Source: Gammaproteobacteria bacterium
GTDB taxonomy: Bacteria; Pseudomonadota; Gammaproteobacteria; Pseudomonadales; Azotimanducaceae
Reading direction: 5' to 3'
NCBI GenBank assembly: GCA_028821405.1
Contig: JAPPGK010000107.1
Coordinates: 1 to 57,646 of the forward strand
DNA length: 57,646 nucleotides
Each line of letters starts with the position of its first letter. Positions within the stretch are counted from its first letter, which is position 1. A model generated the notes under the pieces. That model did no database searches and had not been told where the DNA came from. It saw only the letters and a program-made list of their open reading frames with translations. This document shows positions 45,696 to 57,381 of the stretch, piece after piece. Position numbers and translations under genes: made by a program.

Positions 45696-48600
45696 TCAAT
45701 CCAATTGCTTCTGGGCCGCCTCCTCGCGCCGTATTCGCGCCGCCAAGTCGCCCGCGTAGGCCGCATCGCCCGCGCGTTCGGCCATCGTATACAACCGGCG
45801 TAGCATCGCGAGTCCATGATCGATTCCATGATCGCGGGCAAGCTTCAGCAACGCGTCGATCTCTTCGGAATCCTCAAACATGCCGACGAGATTGACCTTG
45901 TCCCGCCAGACCAGGCCGTCATTCTTCAGGACGTCAGCGATCAGGCTCAAAGGCAGGGGGCTCCCCGTCGTTCGAGCTAGGGAAGCAAGGCTCATTGCCC
46001 CGCGTGAGCCTAGTGGCACGCCGGAGGACTCAACACCGGCGATTGTGCGAGTCAGCAGATCCCGAGCGAGGTCCGGTTCACCCATTTGCACGCCACGCTT
46101 GCCGAGGGCGGTCAGGATCTCGAGCACCGAAGCCTGATCCACCTTTCCGTCGTGCAACCATCCCAACAGCGCTTGCCGAGCGGTATCGGTCCACTCGGAA
46201 ACCCGTGGCCAGTCGGGTGCGCTTGTGGGGAACAGCCGCTCCTTGCGGGCGAGGACTGCCTCGACGCCGGCCAGGACCACCCGGTTGTAGCCATTTGTCC
46301 GGGTCAAGGTGTCGATCCCATAGAGCGTTTCTAGATCACCCAGCGCGGCCGCGACCACGTCGGGTCGGCCACTTGGATCATCATACGGTTGGGTTCGGCT
46401 GGCCGATCCCTTCAATAGGGCACCGAGTATCTTGACTGCGTGGCACGGGTCGCCGGCTCTCGCGTACGCTCGCACGAGTTCCACCGCCTTGGCCGCTCCC
46501 ACGCCTGCCAGTTGAGCCGGCATGGCCAGGACCTGAGGGTACCGGCGTGCCACCTGTTCGAGCAGTTCTTGCGGCCCGTAAACCAAGTCCAACAGCGCAA
46601 GCACGAGAATATCGAACAACGCGTCTGCGCCGGGAACATCATCGGCGCGCCGGGCCACGGAGAGAATGTCCTCCACGAATCCGCGCGCCACCGCTTCGGG
46701 CAGCCTTGCGGCCACTTCGCTGGCGAGTCCGAGCAAGCCGGCAAGGTCCGATTCGTACAAGAATCCGCCCCTTGGCGCATTTTCGGACTTCGCGTACTCG
46801 CCGTGGCGGATCAGTCGTGCTGCCACAAGCCGGTATCGTTCCTCGGCCCCGTCCACCGCGCCCCCGGCGGCGAAAACGCGGGCCGTCAACACCAACTGGA
46901 AGAGCGACGGGTCGGCCATCGAGGACAGACGTTCTTCGAACGCTTCCCGCTCGCCCGCAACGAACGGTCCCGGTTGGCGTTCGCGCAGCAGCATCCACAG
47001 AGTGAACTCGTGATCGTCGATCGTCTGCCCGAGTAGGCGGGACGTGAGTTCCTTCCGACGTTGCCCGTCGGCGGTCGCCCGGGCCAGGTGGCCGTAGAGC
47101 CGATGAAATCCCCTTCGAATCTCGTCCGGCATCGCCCGCAAGTATCCGTCAAGCTCCCGTGCGCCGTAGGGTGACTCCGCGACCGCATCGAACAGCGTGC
47201 GCGGCTCGGCGGGTGCTTGTGCTCGAGGGTTGCGCGGCAGGCGCGCGCTCAACAGGGGGGATGCAATGAGTTGAAGGCTCATGTTCCCCGGCGTCGCATG
47301 TCCGGACGATTCGAGCGGCATCAGGAGCTTGCGCCAGGCTTTGCGCAACGCCCGCCGGCCTTGTTCGGGTTCTCCGGCGCCGAGCGCCTCAACAAGACCT
47401 TGCGTGGCCCAACGATCGGCTGCGGGGGACTGCGGCGCAGGAGGTCTCTGATCGCCGAGGTCAACCAATTGCCGCAGAAGCCGATCGAACGGCGCGGACA
47501 AATCCGCGGTTCGCGCCGCGAGCTCGGATTGGTAGACCGCGGGGTCTCGAAAGTCCAGGCCGCCGTCCGCTGCCACCGCTACCGCCTCTTGAAACCGCTG
47601 CTGCGATCTCAGCAATTGAAAGTACGCCAAGCGCCAGTAGTCGCGATCGGGCGACGCCCCGTAGGCGCCGGCGATCGCTTCCTCGGCGCGAGCCGCATAG
47701 CCCAGGTTCAGCCATGCTTCGATCAATCGAGCCAGCGGGAGATCGTTGTCGGGATCAAGCTTGCACAGGCGTTCCAGCAACGGCGCATGGCGCTCGGAAT
47801 CCGCCCGCGTGGGCTTGCCGAACCGCTTTTCCGGATACTCCATTTCGTAGGCGGCAACCGCCAGCCTCGGGTCCACCTGCCGACCCGCCGCAATCTCCGC
47901 CAACAGTTGCGATCTGGCAGCGGTCAGCGCCACTCGAGTACCGCGATGGGTATAGCCGGGATAGGGGAACGGGTGCTCCGGCAAGCCGTATCCCAACTCG
48001 GACAGACGTTGGGACACCTGCAACGGGCGGCCCTCGTATACCGCCCTCAACAGCGGCTCTGCACTTGATAACTCGGACCAGCGGGATTCGGCGAACCCGG
48101 CGATCCGGTATAGCACTCCCGAATTGCTCGGGTGGGCATCAAGGGGCAGGACGGCAAGTACGTCGTATCGAACGCCGTCGTCGTAGATGCTGCGAAGGCC
48201 CGATAGTCTTTCGATGATCGTGTCCGTGACCTCGGTACGCTGCCTGGCGGTCAGTTCACCCCGGAGAAGCGCACGGAACGCGCCGACGGTCCCGAGCCGT
48301 GCAGACCTCTCGCCCCGTCGGGAGCGTTCCGCCTCGACCCGCAAATAGCGGATCCGGTCGTCTGTGGTGCCCCGCTTCTCAAGGTATCGCCAGTGGCCGA
48401 GCTTGTCGTTGTCCCCGAACCCATCGAATGGCTGGCCACCGGCATGGGGCTTGAGCAGCAGCGTAATGACCTCCTGCGGCGGGATCAGCGGGCGGCCCAC
48501 CGCCTCTTCGACCCTCAGGAACAATCCGGCGTCCCGCAACAGGAATCCAATCAAGGCGTCCGGATCCGCCGCCAACTTCGACGAGGCGACCCGCGCCAGG

Positions 48601-51600
48601 CGATCGAGCTTCGCCGCTTCCAGAAAGAGCAATCCGTAGCCCAGCCCCTCGCGGAATCTCCCGTCTCGGATCCGCTCGCCCAACAACCTTTCGATCTCGT
48701 CGGCGGCGCCGGCGAGGCGCAGCCGTTTCAATCGGGTTTCGAAGCCGTCCTTCTCGTCGGTCCGCCCGGGTTGTCTGGTCGACGACCCTTGGGCGCCGTT
48801 GTGTGCTGGCGCGGATACGCCGTCGGGCAGCAGCCGTCCGGCGACCCCGTAGGCTTGCCTAAGGTGTTCGGCGAAGTCCTCGTCGCCGCCGAAGTGCACC
48901 AGCAGGCGTACGTCCGCGTGCTCCGCCAGATCGTCGTCGCCCAGGAAGAAACCGACGCGGCGGATCAGCCTCGCGGTGCGGTCGAGTCGCGCGTAGCGGG
49001 CTAGCGGCAGGGGTCCGTCGTCCGAACGTTGGATCACGTTGGCCAACTCCGTATCGAACAGGGCTTTCAGTTCCGCGGCCGCAGATTCGGACTTCCCGGG
49101 GGCCCCCGGCCAGCTCAACAGCAATCCCTGCTCCAGCGAGTCGAAGTGGTCGCGATACTCGCGCGATACCGTCGCGTTGAGGCTCTCCGTTGCCGGCTGC
49201 CGCGAGTTTGGGTCAACCGGAGGCAATACCGTCGGCTGGCGTCCGAGCACGATGCGGATCGCCCGAAGGTAGCGCTGAAACGCGACATCTTCGCGGGCGG
49301 TGGCCTCGTAAAGAAAGCCCGTCTTGTGGAGCAGTTCCAGGCTGTCGCGGTTGACGTTCAGTGCGCGGTTGTAGAAGACCCGCGACTGCTCGCCATAGCC
49401 CGTCGCCTCGAAGATTTCCGCCTTGGTCCGATCGATATCGATCAAACCCGTGATGTCGTCGATCATCTCGAAGGCCCGCTCGGCCCCGGGCACGTCCCCG
49501 TTGGCCAACAGCGAGGCGCCGACGCCGATATACACCTCCGGGGGCAACTGCTGGCGCAGACCCACCAGTCGGCGTCCATACTTCAGCTGCCGGTCGATAT
49601 CCCCGCGACCGGTGCTGAAACCACCGAAGCCGGCGTTCGGCGTGGCCATGGTCACCAGCTCGCGAAGCACCGCCGGGCGCCGAATGCCCGCTTCGGCCAA
49701 CGAGTTCTCCAAGGCCAGGAACGAAGCCTCGGTGTCGCCCTTTTCGTGCGCGATGTCGGCCAGCAACTCGTACAGATAGAACTTGCCGGCGCGACGGGCA
49801 ATGCGCTCCAGGATTATCCGGCGGGTCCACTCCAGCGTATCCAGTGCCTCGGTGTTCGGTCTCCGGGAAAAGCCGGTGGTGCCGAGGAGGTTGAGAATGC
49901 CGTCCACCGCCACCACGAAGTCGTTGTCCTCGACGGCGTTCTCGGCGAAGAACTGCAGAGTGGCCAATGCCTTGTCCGCCTGGCCGTTGTCGGCCATCGC
50001 CTCGGCCAAGAGCAGCAGGTTGTCGTCGTTCTCCGGCTGTTCCACCAACGCCCGCCGGTACGCCGCCACCGCCTGATCGGCAAACCCCGCCATCGAGAAG
50101 ACGCCGGCCTCGAACTCGCCCGTGACCGCGCCCCGGTCGAATTGTCTGAGCTTGTGCATCCAGCGCTGGATCTCCTCGAATCGCTCGTCGGAATTGGCCG
50201 CCAGATCAAGGGTCAGCAGATTGACGATGATGCTCTTGATGTGATCGACGCGGTTGGCGGGATCGATCTCGTAGAGCCTGCGCAATGCCTTGTCGTGCGC
50301 CGGATAGTCCTTAAGGAGCAGGTGGACATGCGCCAGCAGTCGCTGGTGGCCGATCTCGTCCTCGCCCAGCGCCCGGGCGTACTCGTCGATGATCTCGGTG
50401 GCTGAGAGCGAATCGCCCGCCTCGGTGTAGATCCGCACCAGGAGGTTCATGTGGTTGCGCCTTGCCGTGCCCGACATCAGCATCTCTTCGAGCTCCACCG
50501 CGAGGTCGCCCATCGTGCCCAGTTCGGCAGCCAGGGGCAGCATCTGGCTCTCGGCGAGACTGCGCCGCGCCGGCGTCTCCATGCCCACCCAGATGTCGCG
50601 CCACAGGGTCAACGCGTCGCGCCTGCGGTCCACCCGGGCATACAGCCACGCCAGGCGCACTTGATCGTCGAACCCCAGTTCGCCGCGTACGTCCTGTATG
50701 GCCTCGAACACCCGTATCGCCTCCTCCGGGCGACTCAAGCGCTCATACGCATCCGCCAGCTCGATGCGCTCTGCGGCATCCGCAGGCAAGAACGCTTCAA
50801 GCCGTACCAAGGCGCCCAATGCGCTCGGGTCCTCGCCCCGGTCCAACCATGTCTCGAACAGGAACAACAGCGCGCCCACGTCGGCACCCCGGGCCTCGAT
50901 GTGACGTTCGATCATCGCCACACCCTCGTCCACAAAGCCCATGGATCGCATCAGCCGTGCGCCTTCGACCAGCACCCCGGCACGCTCCCCGTTACGTGCC
51001 TCCAGCGCTTGCCACACGGCCAGTGCCGCATCGTCGTCCCCCAGGTGGAGATAGTGCGCCGCCAAGGCGTCGTACCACCGCAACTCGGCCGGTTCTGCTT
51101 CGATCATCCGGCGATACTCCTGGACCATGGCATCGGTGTCGCCGGCAGCTTCATGCAGGGCAACCAGCCGTTGCCGTTCGTCAATGTCCGCGTTCGTTGG
51201 CGACAGTTCCTCATACAGCGCAATGGCGCGGTGGTACTCCTCGGTCTCGATCAGGGCTTCCACCCGAAGTCGCAGCAGATCCTCATCGTCGGATTCGCGC
51301 GCGGCCAGATCCTCGATCAGTTGATGCAGTTCACCGGCGGAACGGTACGACTCCGTCAACAGGCCGAGGGCGTATAGGCGATCGGTGCGCACCGGCGCGG
51401 CCGCATAGCCCAGCCAAGCCTGTTCCCGGGCCAGTTCGTGCGACCCGGCCTGAAGCGCCCACTCGGACAAGCGCACATGCCGCGGGTACGGCTTGCCGTT
51501 CGTCTTCAGCGGCTGATACAGCGTGATTGCGCGGTCCGGGCGGCCCAGCAGCGCCAGCACCACGGCCGCCTGGTTGCGGAAGCCCGGTTCTCGTTGTAGA

Positions 51601-52163
51601 GCGAGCTCCTCCAACGCCGCCACGTTGCGCGAGCTCATGTCCATCATCGCCAGGCGAACCCGGATCAGCCATTGCTCATCGCCCGGCCCAAAGGCCTCGG
51701 CGGCGCGTTGATACCAGTCCCGGGCCTGGTCCGCCACGCCGCCGGCGTCGAGGAGGCGCGCCTTCAGCAACAACGCCCCGGGCTCAGGCGAACTGCGAAG
51801 CGCGTCGTCGGCGGCGACCACGGCGGCTTCGATCGCCCCGTCGCGCCACCTGAAGTGCGCAATCGCCAGGTGACAGGCCGCCCGGCTTTCCGGACTCAAC
51901 CCAGCCCGGCGTGAATAGGCCCGCAATCGGGCGACGGTGCGGTCGATGCCGGTGCCGCCGACCACCGCCTCGCGATAGACCGCAGCGGCCTTGTCCGGGT
52001 CGTGGCGCCCTGTCGTCTCCAGGGAAGCGATGAGCTCGGCCAAGGTTGTGGCAGCGGCGGCCGTGGATGGCGGCAGCAGGAGCGCGGCCAACAACAGTGT
52101 CAGCGCGAATCCATGGGGATGGGTCGCTCCAACGCTCGCCGAGGGCATCGGGCGCCTTTTCAC
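45696..52163 (-). CDS. Giant exported tetratricopeptide-repeat protein (2155 residues)
   Basis: From GTG 52163. Residues 1-38 are a signal peptide (ALTLLLAALLLPPSTAAAA). Most of the first ~1000 residues are TPR-like helical pairs: AHFRWRDGAIEAAVVAADDAL, LHEAAGDTDAMVQEYRRMIEAEP, YERLSRPEEAIRVFEAI, AEAMADNGQADKALATLQFF and GADVGALLFLFETWLDRGEDP. The rest is also mainly helical with scattered TPR-like units and Pro/Gly breaks near 1080-1110 and 1580-1600. No catalytic motif or membrane anchor is seen. It is the fourth gene after a sigma factor, FecR and TonB receptor, 86 bp behind the receptor stop, and ends RREEAAQKQLD. A periplasmic scaffold or effector is inferred. Confidence 0.85.
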   Translation of the reverse strand: MKRRPMPSASVGATHPHGFALTLLLAALLLPPSTAAAATTLAELIASLETTGRHDPDKAAAVYREAVVGGTGIDRTVARLRAYSRRAGLSPESRAACHLAIAHFRWRDGAIEAAVVAADDALRSSPEPGALLLKARLLDAGGVADQARDWYQRAAEAFGPGDEQWLIRVRLAMMDMSSRNVAALEELALQREPGFRNQAAVVLALLGRPDRAITLYQPLKTNGKPYPRHVRLSEWALQAGSHELAREQAWLGYAAAPVRTDRLYALGLLTESYRSAGELHQLIEDLAARESDDEDLLRLRVEALIETEEYHRAIALYEELSPTNADIDERQRLVALHEAAGDTDAMVQEYRRMIEAEPAELRWYDALAAHYLHLGDDDAALAVWQALEARNGERAGVLVEGARLMRSMGFVDEGVAMIERHIEARGADVGALLFLFETWLDRGEDPSALGALVRLEAFLPADAAERIELADAYERLSRPEEAIRVFEAIQDVRGELGFDDQVRLAWLYARVDRRRDALTLWRDIWVGMETPARRSLAESQMLPLAAELGTMGDLAVELEEMLMSGTARRNHMNLLVRIYTEAGDSLSATEIIDEYARALGEDEIGHQRLLAHVHLLLKDYPAHDKALRRLYEIDPANRVDHIKSIIVNLLTLDLAANSDERFEEIQRWMHKLRQFDRGAVTGEFEAGVFSMAGFADQAVAAYRRALVEQPENDDNLLLLAEAMADNGQADKALATLQFFAENAVEDNDFVVAVDGILNLLGTTGFSRRPNTEALDTLEWTRRIILERIARRAGKFYLYELLADIAHEKGDTEASFLALENSLAEAGIRRPAVLRELVTMATPNAGFGGFSTGRGDIDRQLKYGRRLVGLRQQLPPEVYIGVGASLLANGDVPGAERAFEMIDDITGLIDIDRTKAEIFEATGYGEQSRVFYNRALNVNRDSLELLHKTGFLYEATAREDVAFQRYLRAIRIVLGRQPTVLPPVDPNSRQPATESLNATVSREYRDHFDSLEQGLLLSWPGAPGKSESAAAELKALFDTELANVIQRSDDGPLPLARYARLDRTARLIRRVGFFLGDDDLAEHADVRLLVHFGGDEDFAEHLRQAYGVAGRLLPDGVSAPAHNGAQGSSTRQPGRTDEKDGFETRLKRLRLAGAADEIERLLGERIRDGRFREGLGYGLLFLEAAKLDRLARVASSKLAADPDALIGFLLRDAGLFLRVEEAVGRPLIPPQEVITLLLKPHAGGQPFDGFGDNDKLGHWRYLEKRGTTDDRIRYLRVEAERSRRGERSARLGTVGAFRALLRGELTARQRTEVTDTIIERLSGLRSIYDDGVRYDVLAVLPLDAHPSNSGVLYRIAGFAESRWSELSSAEPLLRAVYEGRPLQVSQRLSELGYGLPEHPFPYPGYTHRGTRVALTAARSQLLAEIAAGRQVDPRLAVAAYEMEYPEKRFGKPTRADSERHAPLLERLCKLDPDNDLPLARLIEAWLNLGYAARAEEAIAGAYGASPDRDYWRLAYFQLLRSQQRFQEAVAVAADGGLDFRDPAVYQSELAARTADLSAPFDRLLRQLVDLGDQRPPAPQSPAADRWATQGLVEALGAGEPEQGRRALRKAWRKLLMPLESSGHATPGNMSLQLIASPLLSARLPRNPRAQAPAEPRTLFDAVAESPYGARELDGYLRAMPDEIRRGFHRLYGHLARATADGQRRKELTSRLLGQTIDDHEFTLWMLLRERQPGPFVAGEREAFEERLSSMADPSLFQLVLTARVFAAGGAVDGAEERYRLVAARLIRHGEYAKSENAPRGGFLYESDLAGLLGLASEVAARLPEAVARGFVEDILSVARRADDVPGADALFDILVLALLDLVYGPQELLEQVARRYPQVLAMPAQLAGVGAAKAVELVRAYARAGDPCHAVKILGALLKGSASRTQPYDDPSGRPDVVAAALGDLETLYGIDTLTRTNGYNRVVLAGVEAVLARKERLFPTSAPDWPRVSEWTDTARQALLGWLHDGKVDQASVLEILTALGKRGVQMGEPDLARDLLTRTIAGVESSGVPLGSRGAMSLASLARTTGSPLPLSLIADVLKNDGLVWRDKVNLVGMFEDSEEIDALLKLARDHGIDHGLAMLRRLYTMAERAGDAAYAGDLAARIRREEAAQKQLD

Positions 52164-52195
52164 CAGATCGAGGGCTCGTTAAACGAAAACGGGCA

Positions 52196-52224
52196 TGGGG
52201 CGCGCCTTTGCGGGCGACGCCCCA
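52196..52224 (-). promoter_or_regulatory. Hairpin between the TonB receptor and TPR genes
   Basis: TGGGGCG (52196-52202) and CGCCCCA (52218-52224) form a perfect 7-bp stem with a 15-nt loop, just after the receptor stop. There is no T-run. It may partly stop or stabilise the transcript, lowering TPR expression relative to the receptor. Confidence 0.4.
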
Positions 52225-52249
52225 CGCCGCGGGGACACATGAAGGCGGT

Positions 52250-55200
52250 TTAGTTCCCCATCGCCCAGGTCACCTCCAGGTACAGTACCCGGCTGCGGGC
52301 GTCCCAGCGCGTCGGGTCGTAGCCTAGGATTCCGCTGAACGACCACGGGCTCGGCGATTCCCGCTTGAACAGGTTGCGCCCGCCGGCGCGCAGGCGAAGT
52401 CCGTTGTCGAACCAGTAGCTGGCCGAACCATCCACCGTCGTCAGCGAAGTGGCCTCGATCGCGGGAAGCTGCTGGAACGAAGTCAGGCACCGCCCCACTA
52501 CGTTGTTGCAACTTCCCGGCCGATCGTTCGTGTAGCCAGGCGTGTAGTAGACAAAGAGGTCGGCGGCAAGGCGCTGCCACTGCCAGGTCAGCTGACCTGT
52601 CAGCCGATACCGGTCACTGCCGTGCTGCGTGCCCAACCGGCTTGTGGGCTCGGCGACTTCGGTCAACTGGAAATACTCCTCGAGGAATCTCGAATAGGTC
52701 AGGCGGGGCGTGACCCTGCCGAAGTTCGTGTCGAAGGAGTACTGAACGGACGTCTCGACGTACTCGCTGACCTTCACCGCCAGGTTGACCAGCCCGCGGG
52801 TGGCACTGATGGGATATCCGTTCTCGTCACGCTGGATGACTTTCTCATTCCCCGCAATCAATTCCGGGTGGGTACCCGTGAAGTCGGAAGCGTCGGCGAT
52901 CTTGTCCGTGAAGTCAGTCTGCGACCAATCCACCCTCCAGCGCAGACCGGGGAATGACTCGGATCGCCAGTCGATGCCCAGGGAGAGCTTGTCCGCATAT
53001 TCAGACTTGATTTCCGGATCGTATGGCGCGTCGATTAGCGGTAGTGCGACGAATACGAAGTCGTCTTCCCCTCTGTCCGGATGGAGATAGTCCTGGAAGA
53101 AAAGGCCAAAATCGCGCATTCTGATGTCTTCGACACTGAATTGCTGCGAAAACAGCGGCGGATGAAACGACTCCGTCCACGCCGCCCGGATCGACAGCGA
53201 ATCGAGGGGCTTGTATAGAAGGCCAATCCGTGGCGTGGTGTCCTTCCTTTCGATGTCGAGAATGTTGGCCGTGCCTAGCAGGGTGTCGTACTCGGGTCCC
53301 CAGGCATCCACCCATCCCACGCCCGGTTGCCATGCTCGATATGCGTTCGGTTCGAATCCGCCTGGTGTGCGTTGTACCCCGCCCTGCGGCCCATTAAAGG
53401 TATGCGTGTCGCGCCGGGCCTGCACGCTCACGTACAACTCTCGGGCACCCGGCCGGGCATTCTTCGCTCCGAACAGCGGAAAGCCCAGTTCCATGAACTC
53501 CGCCCGTAGCCCGGATTCGGGCTCGGGTACGGCATAGGCATCCGCCCAATAGTCCAATACGTCCCTGCCTCGGTCGGCAAACCAACTCCAGTTGCGTCCA
53601 ATCTTCCTTGTGCGGTCCTCGACACCCACGACATAGTTGATGGGTCCGCCCCAGATCTCCAGCAGATTGCCACGCAGCACCAACTCGAAAGTAGTGCTTA
53701 CAGTGCGGCCTCCGAAGTCAAAGGTGGGCACAAGGAACGACGAAAGATCAGCACTCTGGGCCGAGCCGTCGCCAAACGGATTGAAGGCAACGTTGGGATC
53801 GGGACTCGACAGGATCCGATAGAACTCGGCTGCGGTGGGTTCATCCTCGGTTCGGTGGTACCGGGCGCGCCACGCCGTCGATTCTTGCTCGGATTCGGAG
53901 CGCGTCACGCTCACGTCCAACTCGTGGCTACCACCGAACCGCCAGACGGTGCCGAGGTTGATCGTCTGCATTGTGTGAACTGATTCGTCGTTGGCGGTCG
54001 GAAACTGGCCCGACTCCACTTCGCGAAACGGGGCATAGGTCACCGCCACGTTGTATCCGAACGGGTTGTAGGCATTGTCGGCCCCGATGATGTAGCCGTC
54101 CGCAAAGGTCCGTGCCTCGATGTAGGCATCGTGTTCGGAAAGAAGTGCTTCCCCGTAGACCATCAGGCCATCCCGGAGATACTGCTCGGCGCGCACGTTC
54201 AGGCCCATGCTCTCGGAAACCCACCCGTTTTGGGGTGGCACGTAGTCGAAGAGCGCAAGCTCCTGCGTGAAGTCGTCCACTGTCGCGCCGACGCCGCTGT
54301 GTCCGAGCGGCAGCTGCATCCGTGGGGCGCCACGCTCGCATCTCGGAAAGACCAGCCAGTACGTGCCGAAAAATCCCCCGGCCTGCTGGCATACGATGCC
54401 GGGCTGCGCGATCGAATTGCGCCTGTCGTACTCCGGTCCCAACAGATCGCGATAGTCCATGCTGGTCCAGATCTTGCGGTTGTTGACCGGCTCCGACTCA
54501 TCGCGCGAAAGATCCGCGGTCACGCTGCCGCTGTCCCACGCGTAGCCGCCGCGCACGCTCATCACTCTTCGATCCGCGTCGGTGGCGCTCAGTTCCTGGC
54601 GAACCGTCGCCTCCAAGCCGGTGAAGCGTTTCTTGGTAATGAAGTTGATGACGCCGCCGATGGCGTCGGAACCATAGATCGCGGACGCGGAACCCAAGTC
54701 GATGTCGACACGCTCGATTGCCGAAAGCGGAATGTTCACCAGGTTTACGGCGTTGTACTCCGAGCCGCCCCGGCCCGAGACGCGTCGCCCGTTGACCAGG
54801 ATCAGCGAGTTCTCCGAACCCAGCGCGCGCAGGTTCGCGAACGACACCCCAATCCCCATTCCATCCCCGGTGCTTATTTCTCGATCCACATCGACGGGTG
54901 CATCGAAGTACCGGCTGCTCTGGGACGTGTTCGAGGCATAGGCCCATGGCATCTGACGAAACAGTTCCTCCATGGTGGAAATGCCGCGCCGCGCCATGTC
55001 CTCGGCAGTTATGCTGACGACATTGGCCGTGGGATCGCCCCCTTTCAATCGCGAACCGGTGACCCGTTGCGCCTCCAGTTCGACGGGCTCTTCCCCTTCT
55101 TCCTCGCTTTCCTCGGCCGCCTCCGCGTTCGCGCCGCCCCCATCCCCGTCGGGTGACTCCTGTGCGCGGCGAACCACGACCGTGTTCTCCGAAGCGAACT

Positions 55201-55489
55201 CGTACGCAAGGCCGGTGCCACTCAAAAGCGTCGCCAACGCTTCTTCCAAGCGGTATTCGCCCTCCAACCCTTCGACTTTGACATCCGCCCCGGCATCCTC
55301 AGGCAGTATGATCTGCACGCCCGACGACTCCCCGAGCGCCACCACGGCCGAACCGATGTTCTGCGGCTCGATGTCGAGCATCATGACCTTGTCAGACCGC
55401 GCCGAAGCACCGGTCGCGAGCAAAGCCAACCCGGTCAATGTGATCGCGGTTAACGACCTCGCATTCGGAATCCCCATAATACTGTGCAT
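52250..55489 (-). CDS. TonB-dependent receptor with N-terminal STN signalling domain
   Basis: A 1079-residue receptor from ATG 55489 (GGAAGG upstream). Signal peptide about 1-34. An STN (secretin/TonB short N-terminal) domain follows at 36-105 (VMMLDIEPQNIGSAVVALGESSGVQI), then an acidic linker. The plug starts near VTGSRLKGGDPTANVV and runs to GSASAIYGSDAIGGVINFITKK. The rest is a long beta-barrel with extended loops; the last strand reads LYLEVTWAM, then GN, without the usual terminal Phe. The STN domain passes ligand binding to FecR. The ligand is unknown; loops are larger than in siderophore receptors, consistent with peptide or glycan uptake. Confidence 0.92.
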   Translation of the reverse strand: MHSIMGIPNARSLTAITLTGLALLATGASARSDKVMMLDIEPQNIGSAVVALGESSGVQIILPEDAGADVKVEGLEGEYRLEEALATLLSGTGLAYEFASENTVVVRRAQESPDGDGGGANAEAAEESEEEGEEPVELEAQRVTGSRLKGGDPTANVVSITAEDMARRGISTMEELFRQMPWAYASNTSQSSRYFDAPVDVDREISTGDGMGIGVSFANLRALGSENSLILVNGRRVSGRGGSEYNAVNLVNIPLSAIERVDIDLGSASAIYGSDAIGGVINFITKKRFTGLEATVRQELSATDADRRVMSVRGGYAWDSGSVTADLSRDESEPVNNRKIWTSMDYRDLLGPEYDRRNSIAQPGIVCQQAGGFFGTYWLVFPRCERGAPRMQLPLGHSGVGATVDDFTQELALFDYVPPQNGWVSESMGLNVRAEQYLRDGLMVYGEALLSEHDAYIEARTFADGYIIGADNAYNPFGYNVAVTYAPFREVESGQFPTANDESVHTMQTINLGTVWRFGGSHELDVSVTRSESEQESTAWRARYHRTEDEPTAAEFYRILSSPDPNVAFNPFGDGSAQSADLSSFLVPTFDFGGRTVSTTFELVLRGNLLEIWGGPINYVVGVEDRTRKIGRNWSWFADRGRDVLDYWADAYAVPEPESGLRAEFMELGFPLFGAKNARPGARELYVSVQARRDTHTFNGPQGGVQRTPGGFEPNAYRAWQPGVGWVDAWGPEYDTLLGTANILDIERKDTTPRIGLLYKPLDSLSIRAAWTESFHPPLFSQQFSVEDIRMRDFGLFFQDYLHPDRGEDDFVFVALPLIDAPYDPEIKSEYADKLSLGIDWRSESFPGLRWRVDWSQTDFTDKIADASDFTGTHPELIAGNEKVIQRDENGYPISATRGLVNLAVKVSEYVETSVQYSFDTNFGRVTPRLTYSRFLEEYFQLTEVAEPTSRLGTQHGSDRYRLTGQLTWQWQRLAADLFVYYTPGYTNDRPGSCNNVVGRCLTSFQQLPAIEATSLTTVDGSASYWFDNGLRLRAGGRNLFKRESPSPWSFSGILGYDPTRWDARSRVLYLEVTWAMGN

Positions 55490-55520
55490 GCTTCCTTCCA
55501 CCCTTGAATTGTGTTTTTTC

Positions 55521-56570
55521 TCAGTTCCCCGCCGTAGCGGTAAGCACGATCCGGTCGTATTGCTCTGTGACTTCGATTGGCAGCGCCCGCGCTAGGCCAT
55601 CAAGCGCATGATCGATCTCGCGGATGCTCAACGCCGTGTAGACAACCAAACCCTTAACCGAGTCATCCTCAATCGAGATCTTCTTGGCCGAGTATCGGTT
55701 CAGCTCCTGGACCACGAGGTACAGCGGCTCCCCGTAGAAACTGAGCATGCCGCTGCGCCAACTCCCAAAACGTTCCATGGACTCTGGCTGAAACGCCCTA
55801 AACACGCCGCGGCTGACGTCGAACTCGGCTACCCAGCCTGCGTCAACACGTCGCTGCGTGAGCGGGGAACTGATTGCCGCGTGATCGGCGTCCGAGACTC
55901 CCCAAGGTGCCCCGTGCAATTCGTCCGTCGGTTCATGGAAAGCGACGGCGCCTTCAACGACCGCCACTTGGTAGTGTTCCGGATACTTGCGGATATTGAA
56001 TGCGGTTCCGACCGCCGTGACCGACCGGACGCCCATATCCACCGTAAAGGGGCGAACCGGATCTTCAGATACCTCGAAGTACGCCTCGCCTCGCTCCAGG
56101 AGGACGCGGCGGAGTTCCTCGTCGTAGTCCACCGCGAGCCGGCCGGCGGTATTGAGCGAGATCACGCTGCCGTCGCCAAGTTCTATGACCTGCTGCTCGC
56201 CGATGCGCGTGAAATACTCTTGCAGTTGACTGTCGTTTGAACCGCGCCACGGCGAGAAGGAGATGACAAGCGCGCCGACAGCCAGCAGCAATCCCGCCGC
56301 TACACCCAGCGCGGCCATCCTTGTCAGTTTGTGTTCGTGGACAACTCGGCGACAGTCCCGAACGATTTCGAGGTGCTCGCCATCATTCGCCAATGCCTCC
56401 ATGGCGGCGAGAACTTCCATCGAACCGTGGAATTCCTCACGGTACTTTGGATCGCTCTGCACACGCCGGTGGATGGCCGCCGCCTCGGCTTCCGAGAGAT
56501 CTTCGGACCAGATGCGCACCAATGCATGCTCGACGTCGCCGTCCATGATTTCCTGAAGGTTCTTCAGCAT
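55521..56570 (-). CDS. FecR-type anti-sigma regulator
   Basis: A 349-residue protein: an N-terminal cytoplasmic part (1-80), one membrane helix (MAALGVAAGLLLAVGALVISF), then a periplasmic FecR domain (IELGDGSVISLNTAGRLAVDYDEELRRVLLERGEAYFEV...PFTVDMGVRSVTAVGTAFNIRKY). The C-terminal about 60 residues (LVVQELNRYSAKKISIEDD... ALPIEV) are a DUF4974/STN-like domain that meets the receptor signalling domain. ATG 56570 overlaps the sigma gene end by 7 bp. It carries the receptor's signal across the inner membrane. Confidence 0.9.
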   Translation of the reverse strand: MLKNLQEIMDGDVEHALVRIWSEDLSEAEAAAIHRRVQSDPKYREEFHGSMEVLAAMEALANDGEHLEIVRDCRRVVHEHKLTRMAALGVAAGLLLAVGALVISFSPWRGSNDSQLQEYFTRIGEQQVIELGDGSVISLNTAGRLAVDYDEELRRVLLERGEAYFEVSEDPVRPFTVDMGVRSVTAVGTAFNIRKYPEHYQVAVVEGAVAFHEPTDELHGAPWGVSDADHAAISSPLTQRRVDAGWVAEFDVSRGVFRAFQPESMERFGSWRSGMLSFYGEPLYLVVQELNRYSAKKISIEDDSVKGLVVYTALSIREIDHALDGLARALPIEVTEQYDRIVLTATAGN

Positions 56571-57166
56571 GATTTTTCCCCTGCGGCCTTGATCTTGCGC
56601 TGTGCCTCGCGGATCCGGCGCATCGCGCGGACCAGGTACCGGTCCACCTGCCTCACACTCACCCCCATGTGCAACGCGATCTCCTCGTAGCTCAGATTGC
56701 CGAAGCGCTGCAGAACGAACGCCACTCGCCAATTCAGACGCATGTTCTTGATGACGGACCTCATCGCCTCCAATTCCAGTTCCGCCGCGATGATCCGCTC
56801 CGGTGTCCGCTCATCGACGCTTTCACTCCCGATGCCCCGTTGCTCCGCCGCGTACGCGTTGCGGACCTGCAATTTGCGGCGCCTGTCGACGATCAGGTTG
56901 TTGGCCATGGTCAGGAGATAGGAACGACTGCTTCCGGTCGAGTCGGACATCTTTTCTTCCAGGCGTTCCACGCCCAAGAGCCGGGAAAAGAGCTCCTGCA
57001 CCACGTCGTCGATCTCATCGGGCGGAATCGACCAACCCAGCAGGAAGTGACGCAAGGCTCGCGCATGCTCATCGAAGAGTTGCTCGACCACCTTCCTTCG
57101 CCCCGGCCTCTCGCGCGAAGCCAGGTCGATGATGTTCTTGTTCCCGGACGCAAATATTCGGCTCAA
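56564..57166 (-). CDS. ECF sigma factor (FecI-like)
   Basis: A 200-residue sigma-70 family protein. TTG 57166 is chosen because GGAGG lies 9-10 nt upstream. Region 2 is FDEHARALRHFLLGWSIPPDEIDDVVQELFSRLL with NNLIVDRRRK. Region 4 is MRLNWRVAFVLQRFGNLSYEEIALHMGVSVRQVDRYLVRAMRRI, the recognition helix. It overlaps the fecR start by 7 bp, so the pair is coupled. It should activate the downstream receptor and TPR genes when the receptor is occupied. Confidence 0.9.
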   Translation of the reverse strand: MSRIFASGNKNIIDLASRERPGRRKVVEQLFDEHARALRHFLLGWSIPPDEIDDVVQELFSRLLGVERLEEKMSDSTGSSRSYLLTMANNLIVDRRRKLQVRNAYAAEQRGIGSESVDERTPERIIAAELELEAMRSVIKNMRLNWRVAFVLQRFGNLSYEEIALHMGVSVRQVDRYLVRAMRRIREAQRKIKAAGEKSC

Positions 57167-57345: not shown

Positions 57346-57381
57346 CGCGCCTCGCGCTGGATTCGCTCCGCCAAATCCACA

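Follow-up and report, generated by a model that had tools for sequence, protein, structure and literature searches.

Three described systems come close to the locus studied here. Firstly, Fec-type systems (FecI-FecR-FecA; FpvA/PupA) comprise, in this order, an extracytoplasmic function (ECF) sigma factor, a membrane-bound FecR and a TonB-dependent receptor with an STN signalling domain. Secondly, Bat (Bacteroides aerotolerance) and other MoxR/VWA operons combine a MoxR ATPase (AAA_3), DUF58, BatA, a VWA protein with a metal ion-dependent adhesion site (MIDAS) and tetratricopeptide repeat (TPR) parts; Bat proteins with VWA and TPR parts are proposed to form a periplasmic complex, MoxR is postulated to load the MIDAS metal of Bat proteins (the function of the latter being left open), and MoxR/VWA systems are regarded as chaperone-like (PMC3557215). 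Thirdly, the tonB2 operon of Vibrio vulnificus has ttpB2 (DUF3450) as its first gene and ttpD2 (TPR) as its last, TonB2-driven siderophore use requires both TtpB2 and TtpD2, and the tonB3 operon begins with a receptor gene (PMC6957404). Elements of all three are found around a gene for a giant, putatively exported TPR-type protein, TPRg, and its relatives. TPRg is the last gene of a Fec-type cassette in the DNA analysed here: a 57,646-nucleotide stretch from an Azotimanducaceae gammaproteobacterium (the window), which forms the start of a contig of 180,666 bases (C11).

The cassette is a row of four open reading frames (ORFs), all on the minus strand in our own ORF list. It begins with an ECF sigma factor of 200 aa (56564–57166, TTG start at 57166; Sigma70_r2 36.6 and Sigma70_r4_2 41 bits, both over cut-off), followed by a FecR-type anti-sigma factor/regulator of 349 aa (55521–56570, ATG start at 56570; FecR 67.7 bits, cut-off 24) with one transmembrane-like segment by hydropathy (residues 85–103). 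The third gene is a TonB-dependent receptor of STN-Plug-barrel architecture (52250–55501; STN 37.2, Plug 55.6 and barrel 46.2 bits, all over the Pfam cut-off). Its STN domain (residues 63–113; 55163–55315) lies within residues 41–119, a region similar to the pseudobactin receptor's signalling domain of known structure (2a02, E 2.3e-6); the receptor as a whole has no close relative with a solved structure, the best match covering part of the plug only (2hdf, E 6.1e-13). Last comes TPRg, of 2155 aa (45696–52163; TPR_19 and TPR_14 over cut-off). Sigma and FecR overlap by 7 nt, 19 nt separate FecR from the receptor, and 86 nt separate the receptor from TPRg. The earlier note on this DNA had described the same four-gene row, the sigma/FecR overlap and the STN domain, and the ORFs, domains, strand and spacings bear that description out. 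The window thus has what defines a Fec-type system: sigma regions 2 and 4, a FecR with just one membrane segment, and a TonB receptor that carries an STN domain; on the Fec pattern, the sigma factor would be activated in a ligand-dependent manner. The locus differs from described Fec-type systems in two ways: what follows the receptor gene is the gene of a giant repeat protein or, in relatives, an operon of the MoxR/VWA kind, and the gap between FecR and the receptor is too small for a separate receptor promoter region.

TPRg starts with GTG; an in-frame ATG at 52148, preceded by an AGAAGG-like site, offers an alternative. Hydropathy reveals an N-terminal hydrophobic segment (residues 19–37) and an internal transmembrane-like stretch (1843–1861), and export to the periplasm is predicted. 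AlphaFold2 models, made in two halves with 33 sequences each, show an all-helical solenoid of 57 helices for residues 36–1078 (pLDDT 85) and a nearly all-helical second half of 59 helices with a few short strands for residues 1079–2155 (pLDDT 79). Periplasmic proteins are among the fold matches, namely a Campylobacter flagellar scaffold chain and LbcA. Two candidate identities were rejected: PrsT (TIGR02917; 77.9 bits versus a curated cut-off of 312.2) and a defence system (none of eight proteins, TPRg plus seven from locus L042, matches a PADLOC model at E≤1e-5).

Relatives of TPRg were sought by scanning contigs with the three paralogues of the window's own genome (G000; G, C and L numbers denote genomes, contigs and loci). 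The scan gave 28 loci, nearly all in metagenome-assembled genomes (MAGs) of Gammaproteobacteria/Pseudomonadales—many of them, we assume, sponge-derived—with one in an Acidobacteria MAG and one in the remote relative Aurantiacibacter xanthus (L066). At E≤1e-20, TPRg is present in 24/200 genomes of the window's family, from 3/37 genera, and among 369 class-level and 398 phylum-level genomes it was found only in G000 (two candidates scored per genome). The receptor subtype (E≤1e-100) is present in 17/200 family genomes, and all 17 are among the 24 with TPRg; the remaining seven are G037, G094, G145, G006, G062, G113 and G176. Since the family scans scored two (TPRg search) or three candidates per genome, copy numbers and absences are lower bounds.

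Reading the neighbourhoods of these relatives shows that TPRg is not receptor-specific, and that many relatives directly follow a VWA gene in a Bat-like operon. Genes were called with our own ORF scripts and named by BLAST against reference proteins from TPRg loci, with Pfam run on representatives only; MoxR in G947 and ExbB/TonB in L114 and L051 escaped the scripts and were recovered by targeted searches. The window's order, sigma-FecR-receptor-TPRg, recurs in G138 and G078, two further genomes of the same genus (TPRg 78% identical to the window's), and probably in G111, where a contig break separates sigma-FecR-receptor from TPRg, the former standing at the end of one contig and the latter at the start of another. 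The operon type is X511-X505-MoxR-DUF58-BatA-VWA-TPRg, often with a redoxin; its representatives, including L042, carry the domains AAA_3, DUF58, BatA, VWA with GATase1_like, and redoxin. A DTSGS MIDAS motif is present in all three VWA proteins inspected, and TlpA/ResA-like redoxins with a WCGPC motif adjoin many TPRg copies. Compared with Bat operons, the TPR part is here a separate chain of ~2,200 aa, and redoxins and receptors are attached.

The two arrangements meet in six genomes, where a receptor gene comes first and the entire X511-to-TPRg operon follows on the same strand, with sigma-FecR ahead of the receptor in four. In G946 and G949 the row is sigma-FecR-receptor followed by the MoxR operon (the G949 receptor is split into two ORFs). 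Two redoxin genes come after the receptor in G078:C9 and G138:C57, the latter with two receptors. G150:C114 likewise has two receptors, two redoxins and the operon, and the contig ends where sigma-FecR would be read. In G947, a response regulator and kinase after the receptor stand in place of sigma-FecR. A further relative, G948 (L056), has the operon followed by a redoxin and a sigma and FecR 61% and 48% identical to the window's. In own contig C92 (twice), G078:C132 and G111:C54, a redoxin-TPRg or VWA-TPRg pair is convergent with a receptor.

Outside the related genus g8, a receptor lies in the same or a convergent neighbouring gene run for 17 of 21 judged TPRg copies: (i) three directly, (ii) two in MAG OFTM314 (G950; L061 and L063), (iii) six via the MoxR operon, (iv) one via a TonB2 cluster, and (v) five convergently. 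The exceptions are G062, L066, G037 (nearest receptor match ~12 kb beyond the operon) and L060 (a sigma-FecR-receptor row starts ~4 kb downstream). Copies at contig edges or broken lie outside this count (the G111 window-type copy, G006, G096, G145, G165, L053 of G150, L064 of G094, G948, L062 and L055), and for G081, G146, G094 and others of the 24 genomes neighbours were read only as far as named here. In g8, one TPRg copy directly follows VWA in all nine genomes read (G063, G097, G133, G166, G113, G140, G151, G156 and G176), with further copies in tandem or on other contigs; the arrays (L080–L095) hold several giant TPR genes behind MoxR-VWA, up to four in tandem in G166. The earlier note's unit is therefore a recurring arrangement, seen in G138 and G078 and, as sigma-FecR-receptor-TPRg, in a distant lineage (L132/L061). 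Its question whether the giant always follows this receptor subtype is answered in the negative by copies in g8, G062 and L066: the homologues lacking a nearby TonB receptor, which it had named beforehand as counter-evidence, do exist, and they belong to MoxR-DUF58-BatA-VWA operons.

How receptor-TPRg pairs can arise is visible in G950. Between receptor and TPRg in L063, an ORF corresponds to the C-terminal 168 residues of the L060 VWA protein (60%), and the corresponding spacer in L061 holds a more decayed VWA end (48%). These C-terminal remnants indicate that the receptor-TPRg pairs of the G950 lineage came from VWA-TPRg operons. The L061 receptor has sigma and FecR ahead of it (L132), and in L063 such a pair is divergent; the STN matches of the two receptors fall short of the Pfam cut-off of 28.4 bits, one narrowly (28.2 bits) and the other more clearly (25.0 bits). 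In addition, a receptor in L112:392-9215 (G950:C119) has TPRg-like ORFs (~30% identity) to either side, and a FecR lies close by. In a tree of 40 TPRg copies, the window clade of four (support 100) stands beside four MoxR-operon copies (joint support 99), and every other major group also contains MoxR-operon copies.

Next to the cassette on C11, and divergent from it, is a TonB2-type cluster: DUF3450, TtpC-like MotA/ExbB, ExbB, two ExbD, TonB and a 435-aa TPR protein (ExbB and the two ExbD by ORF reading, the others by Pfam). The same cluster adjoins the cassette in G000, G078, G138 and G111. In G111, 354 nt separate it from a same-strand X511-X505-MoxR-DUF58-BatA row that comes next and reaches the contig end; on the cluster's other flank, sigma-FecR-receptor runs divergently. 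G078:C57 carries receptor-DUF3450-TtpC-ExbB-ExbD-ExbD-TonB-TPR-TPRg on one strand, and G155 has a convergent version, in which a TonB2 cluster containing a receptor gene adjoins TPRg. We take the full Vibrio TonB2/TonB3 order to be TtpB-TtpC-ExbB-ExbD-TonB-TtpD. The cluster here resembles it in having DUF3450, TtpC-like MotA/ExbB, ExbB, ExbD and TonB with a TPR gene last, but differs in its two ExbD genes and in the extra giant, TPRg.

These observations—gene order, domains, recurrence, the G950 derivation and the tree position of the window clade—lead us to propose, with about even confidence, that TPRg is a periplasmic scaffold of a MoxR/VWA envelope complex that has been recruited to a Fec-regulated, TonB2-driven receptor. 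The STN-bearing receptor would bind its ligand and, via FecR, free the ECF sigma factor; this would transcribe sigma-FecR-receptor and then, past an attenuator-like hairpin, TPRg. After export, TPRg would form an extremely long TPR-type solenoid in the periplasm. Ancestrally it would have served a Bat-like MoxR/DUF58/BatA/VWA complex as its scaffold subunit; in the window it would have come to stand directly behind the receptor, near a TonB2-type energiser. Its most likely role would be to join periplasmic parts (VWA proteins, the receptor or the TonB side), and perhaps also clients that the redoxin keeps in shape.

The hairpin is a GC-rich element in the receptor/TPRg spacer (52190–52231, minus strand), recognized by folding and conservation. 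The 86-nt spacer folds at -36.7 kcal/mol (z -2.98; none of 200 shuffles as stable); the hairpin arms are kept in G078 and G138, and a T-rich stretch follows. Spacers in L040 and L041 fold with z of -3.05 and -2.35, while the piece folded from L039, which is without the 5' arm, is not unusually stable. With such a hairpin in the spacer, the receptor may be made in greater amounts than TPRg, and separate regulation of the TPRg gene is possible. A terminator scan found 7 terminators versus 8.3 expected, the spacer hairpin not among them; a promoter scan, which is uninformative for ECF promoters, found none. Upstream, in four genomes, sigma and the TonB2 cluster diverge from a short common intergenic stretch that contains conserved blocks; in G000, it is the second sigma described below, not the window sigma, that faces the cluster.

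Several points weigh against the proposed scaffold. The window cassette has no adjacent MoxR/VWA gene, and none was found in flanks L031, L040 and L041; the window spacer holds no VWA remnant, its blastx matches being at chance level; and the TPRg tree is a quick build with long-branch warnings. The 20 g8 loci (338,799 bp, searched with our own profiles) contain no receptor, FecR or sigma match, and none was found around TPRg in G062 (40 kb) and L066; g8 genomes carry matching receptors elsewhere, away from TPRg. Because the scans scored only two or three candidates per genome and the genomes are related, the 17-of-24 receptor pattern does not represent 17 independent events. Fold searches of a PDB library return generic helical-repeat proteins with low TM-scores, and the TPR protein in the TtpD position gave no phmmer match at E≤10 to five TPRg sequences (Vibrio TtpD itself lay outside this comparison). 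The hairpin could even end transcription before TPRg.

What TPRg does might instead be read from the TonB2 side: as an oversized, TtpD-like TonB2 accessory that helps TonB2 engage the receptor, its MoxR/VWA link being mere history. The adjoining cluster, the one-strand and convergent arrangements of G078:C57 and G155, and the Vibrio requirement for TtpB2 and TtpD2 together with the receptor-first tonB3 operon all speak for it. However, the cluster already holds a TPR protein in the TtpD position that shows no detectable sequence kinship to TPRg, the TonB match in G078:C57 is split over two frames, and no DUF3450, ExbD or TonB match was found in 16 g8 loci holding TPRg or its operon; we consider this reading unlikely.

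The redoxins suggest another role, in which TPRg and a redoxin form a periplasmic maturation factor (folding, disulfide formation or cofactor insertion) for the receptor or co-induced proteins. This would suit the WCGPC redoxins beside many TPRg copies, a DsbD_N domain in a neighbouring FG-GAP protein on C92, and the chaperone-like standing given to MoxR/VWA systems (PMC3557215); yet in the window no redoxin was called between sigma and TPRg, and no client emerged, which makes it quite improbable. The earlier note's own idea, that TPRg binds or stores an imported ligand such as a polymer taken up by the receptor, draws on the long helical solenoid beside that receptor, but some TPRg relatives have no receptor nearby, and Pfam and profile scans find no carbohydrate-binding or hydrolase domain in TPRg; we judge it very improbable.

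G000 itself allows the rate of chance neighbours to be gauged. Because it has 61 Plug matches in 4.77 Mb, a receptor edge is expected by rough arithmetic within 500 bp of a given gene in ~1.3% of cases, and within 1500 bp in ~3.8%. Two of its three TPRg copies have a receptor within 100 bp, and the third has one 1.8 kb away. The other two copies, both on C92, each face a convergently oriented receptor gene (40% and 30% identity to the window receptor), across gaps of ~90 nt in one case and 1.8 kb, with a 385-aa ORF called inside, in the other; an ORF beside a C92 copy is, we presume, one known under the name Uma2. Three other MoxR loci over the cut-off in G000 (C76, C122 and C116; 50 kb) contain no receptor, FecR or sigma match. 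A chance neighbourhood, with TPRg a general envelope protein whose gene moved behind a receptor, is thus barely plausible: large TPR genes duplicate easily (tandem copies in g8, three in G000) and receptors are abundant in G000, but receptor linkage in the 17 of 21 copies spans several clades and orders and is absent from all three of those MoxR loci.

Other features of G000 touch on the same gene families. Ten Ns directly follow the window (C11:57647-57656), and past this gap lies a second FecR and sigma (C11:57836-59487; L031:2836-4487), 52% and 63% identical to the window pair. A FecR-sigma pair of this second type directly precedes the receptor in G138 and G078 (80–89% identity), and so the pair seems to have been duplicated in G000. 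Close to the gap and to poly-G runs, a minus-strand piece at 57377–57484 matches TPRg residues 327–362 (58% at the protein level; 83% in DNA over 103 bases); it is either left over from a second unit or an artefact of the assembly. On C92, two adjoining genes lie between the two receptors (L067:1112-4488), one with FG-GAP repeats and DsbD_N, and relatives of these genes adjoin receptors in L047 and L050. C28 carries FecR-receptor-receptor (L034:2415-10903); these receptors are closer to the window receptor (~50%), no TPRg match was found there, and the second receptor ORF starts with a stretch resembling a FecR C-terminus. A fourth MoxR locus, on C121 (L138), is an operon of the TPRg type, truncated by contig ends; it repeats the BatA/VWA region with which C92 ends (~90% DNA identity). 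Given C121, a further TPRg copy may be absent from the G000 assembly.

In several genomes, then, physical linkage under a Fec-type switch unites a receptor with a TonB2 energiser, MoxR/VWA genes and a giant TPR protein. Each module is known, and a search of the open-access literature found no paper that joins them. Taken further, the scaffold proposal would yield an undescribed trans-envelope machine, in which a Fec-regulated, TonB2-driven receptor depends for its action on a MoxR ATPase/VWA complex of the inner membrane that reaches it via a periplasmic solenoid of more than 100 helices, such that ATP- and ion-gradient-driven systems act on one outer-membrane receptor; this extension we offer tentatively and consider rather unlikely. 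Two puzzles meet at this locus: the role of MoxR/VWA (Bat-like) operons, and the reason why a TPR protein is required by TonB2 systems. Should the link prove functional, MoxR/VWA complexes would gain a concrete outer-membrane partner and an inducible handle, and in some bacteria a receptor for a nutrient or signal may be coupled to machinery for envelope assembly.

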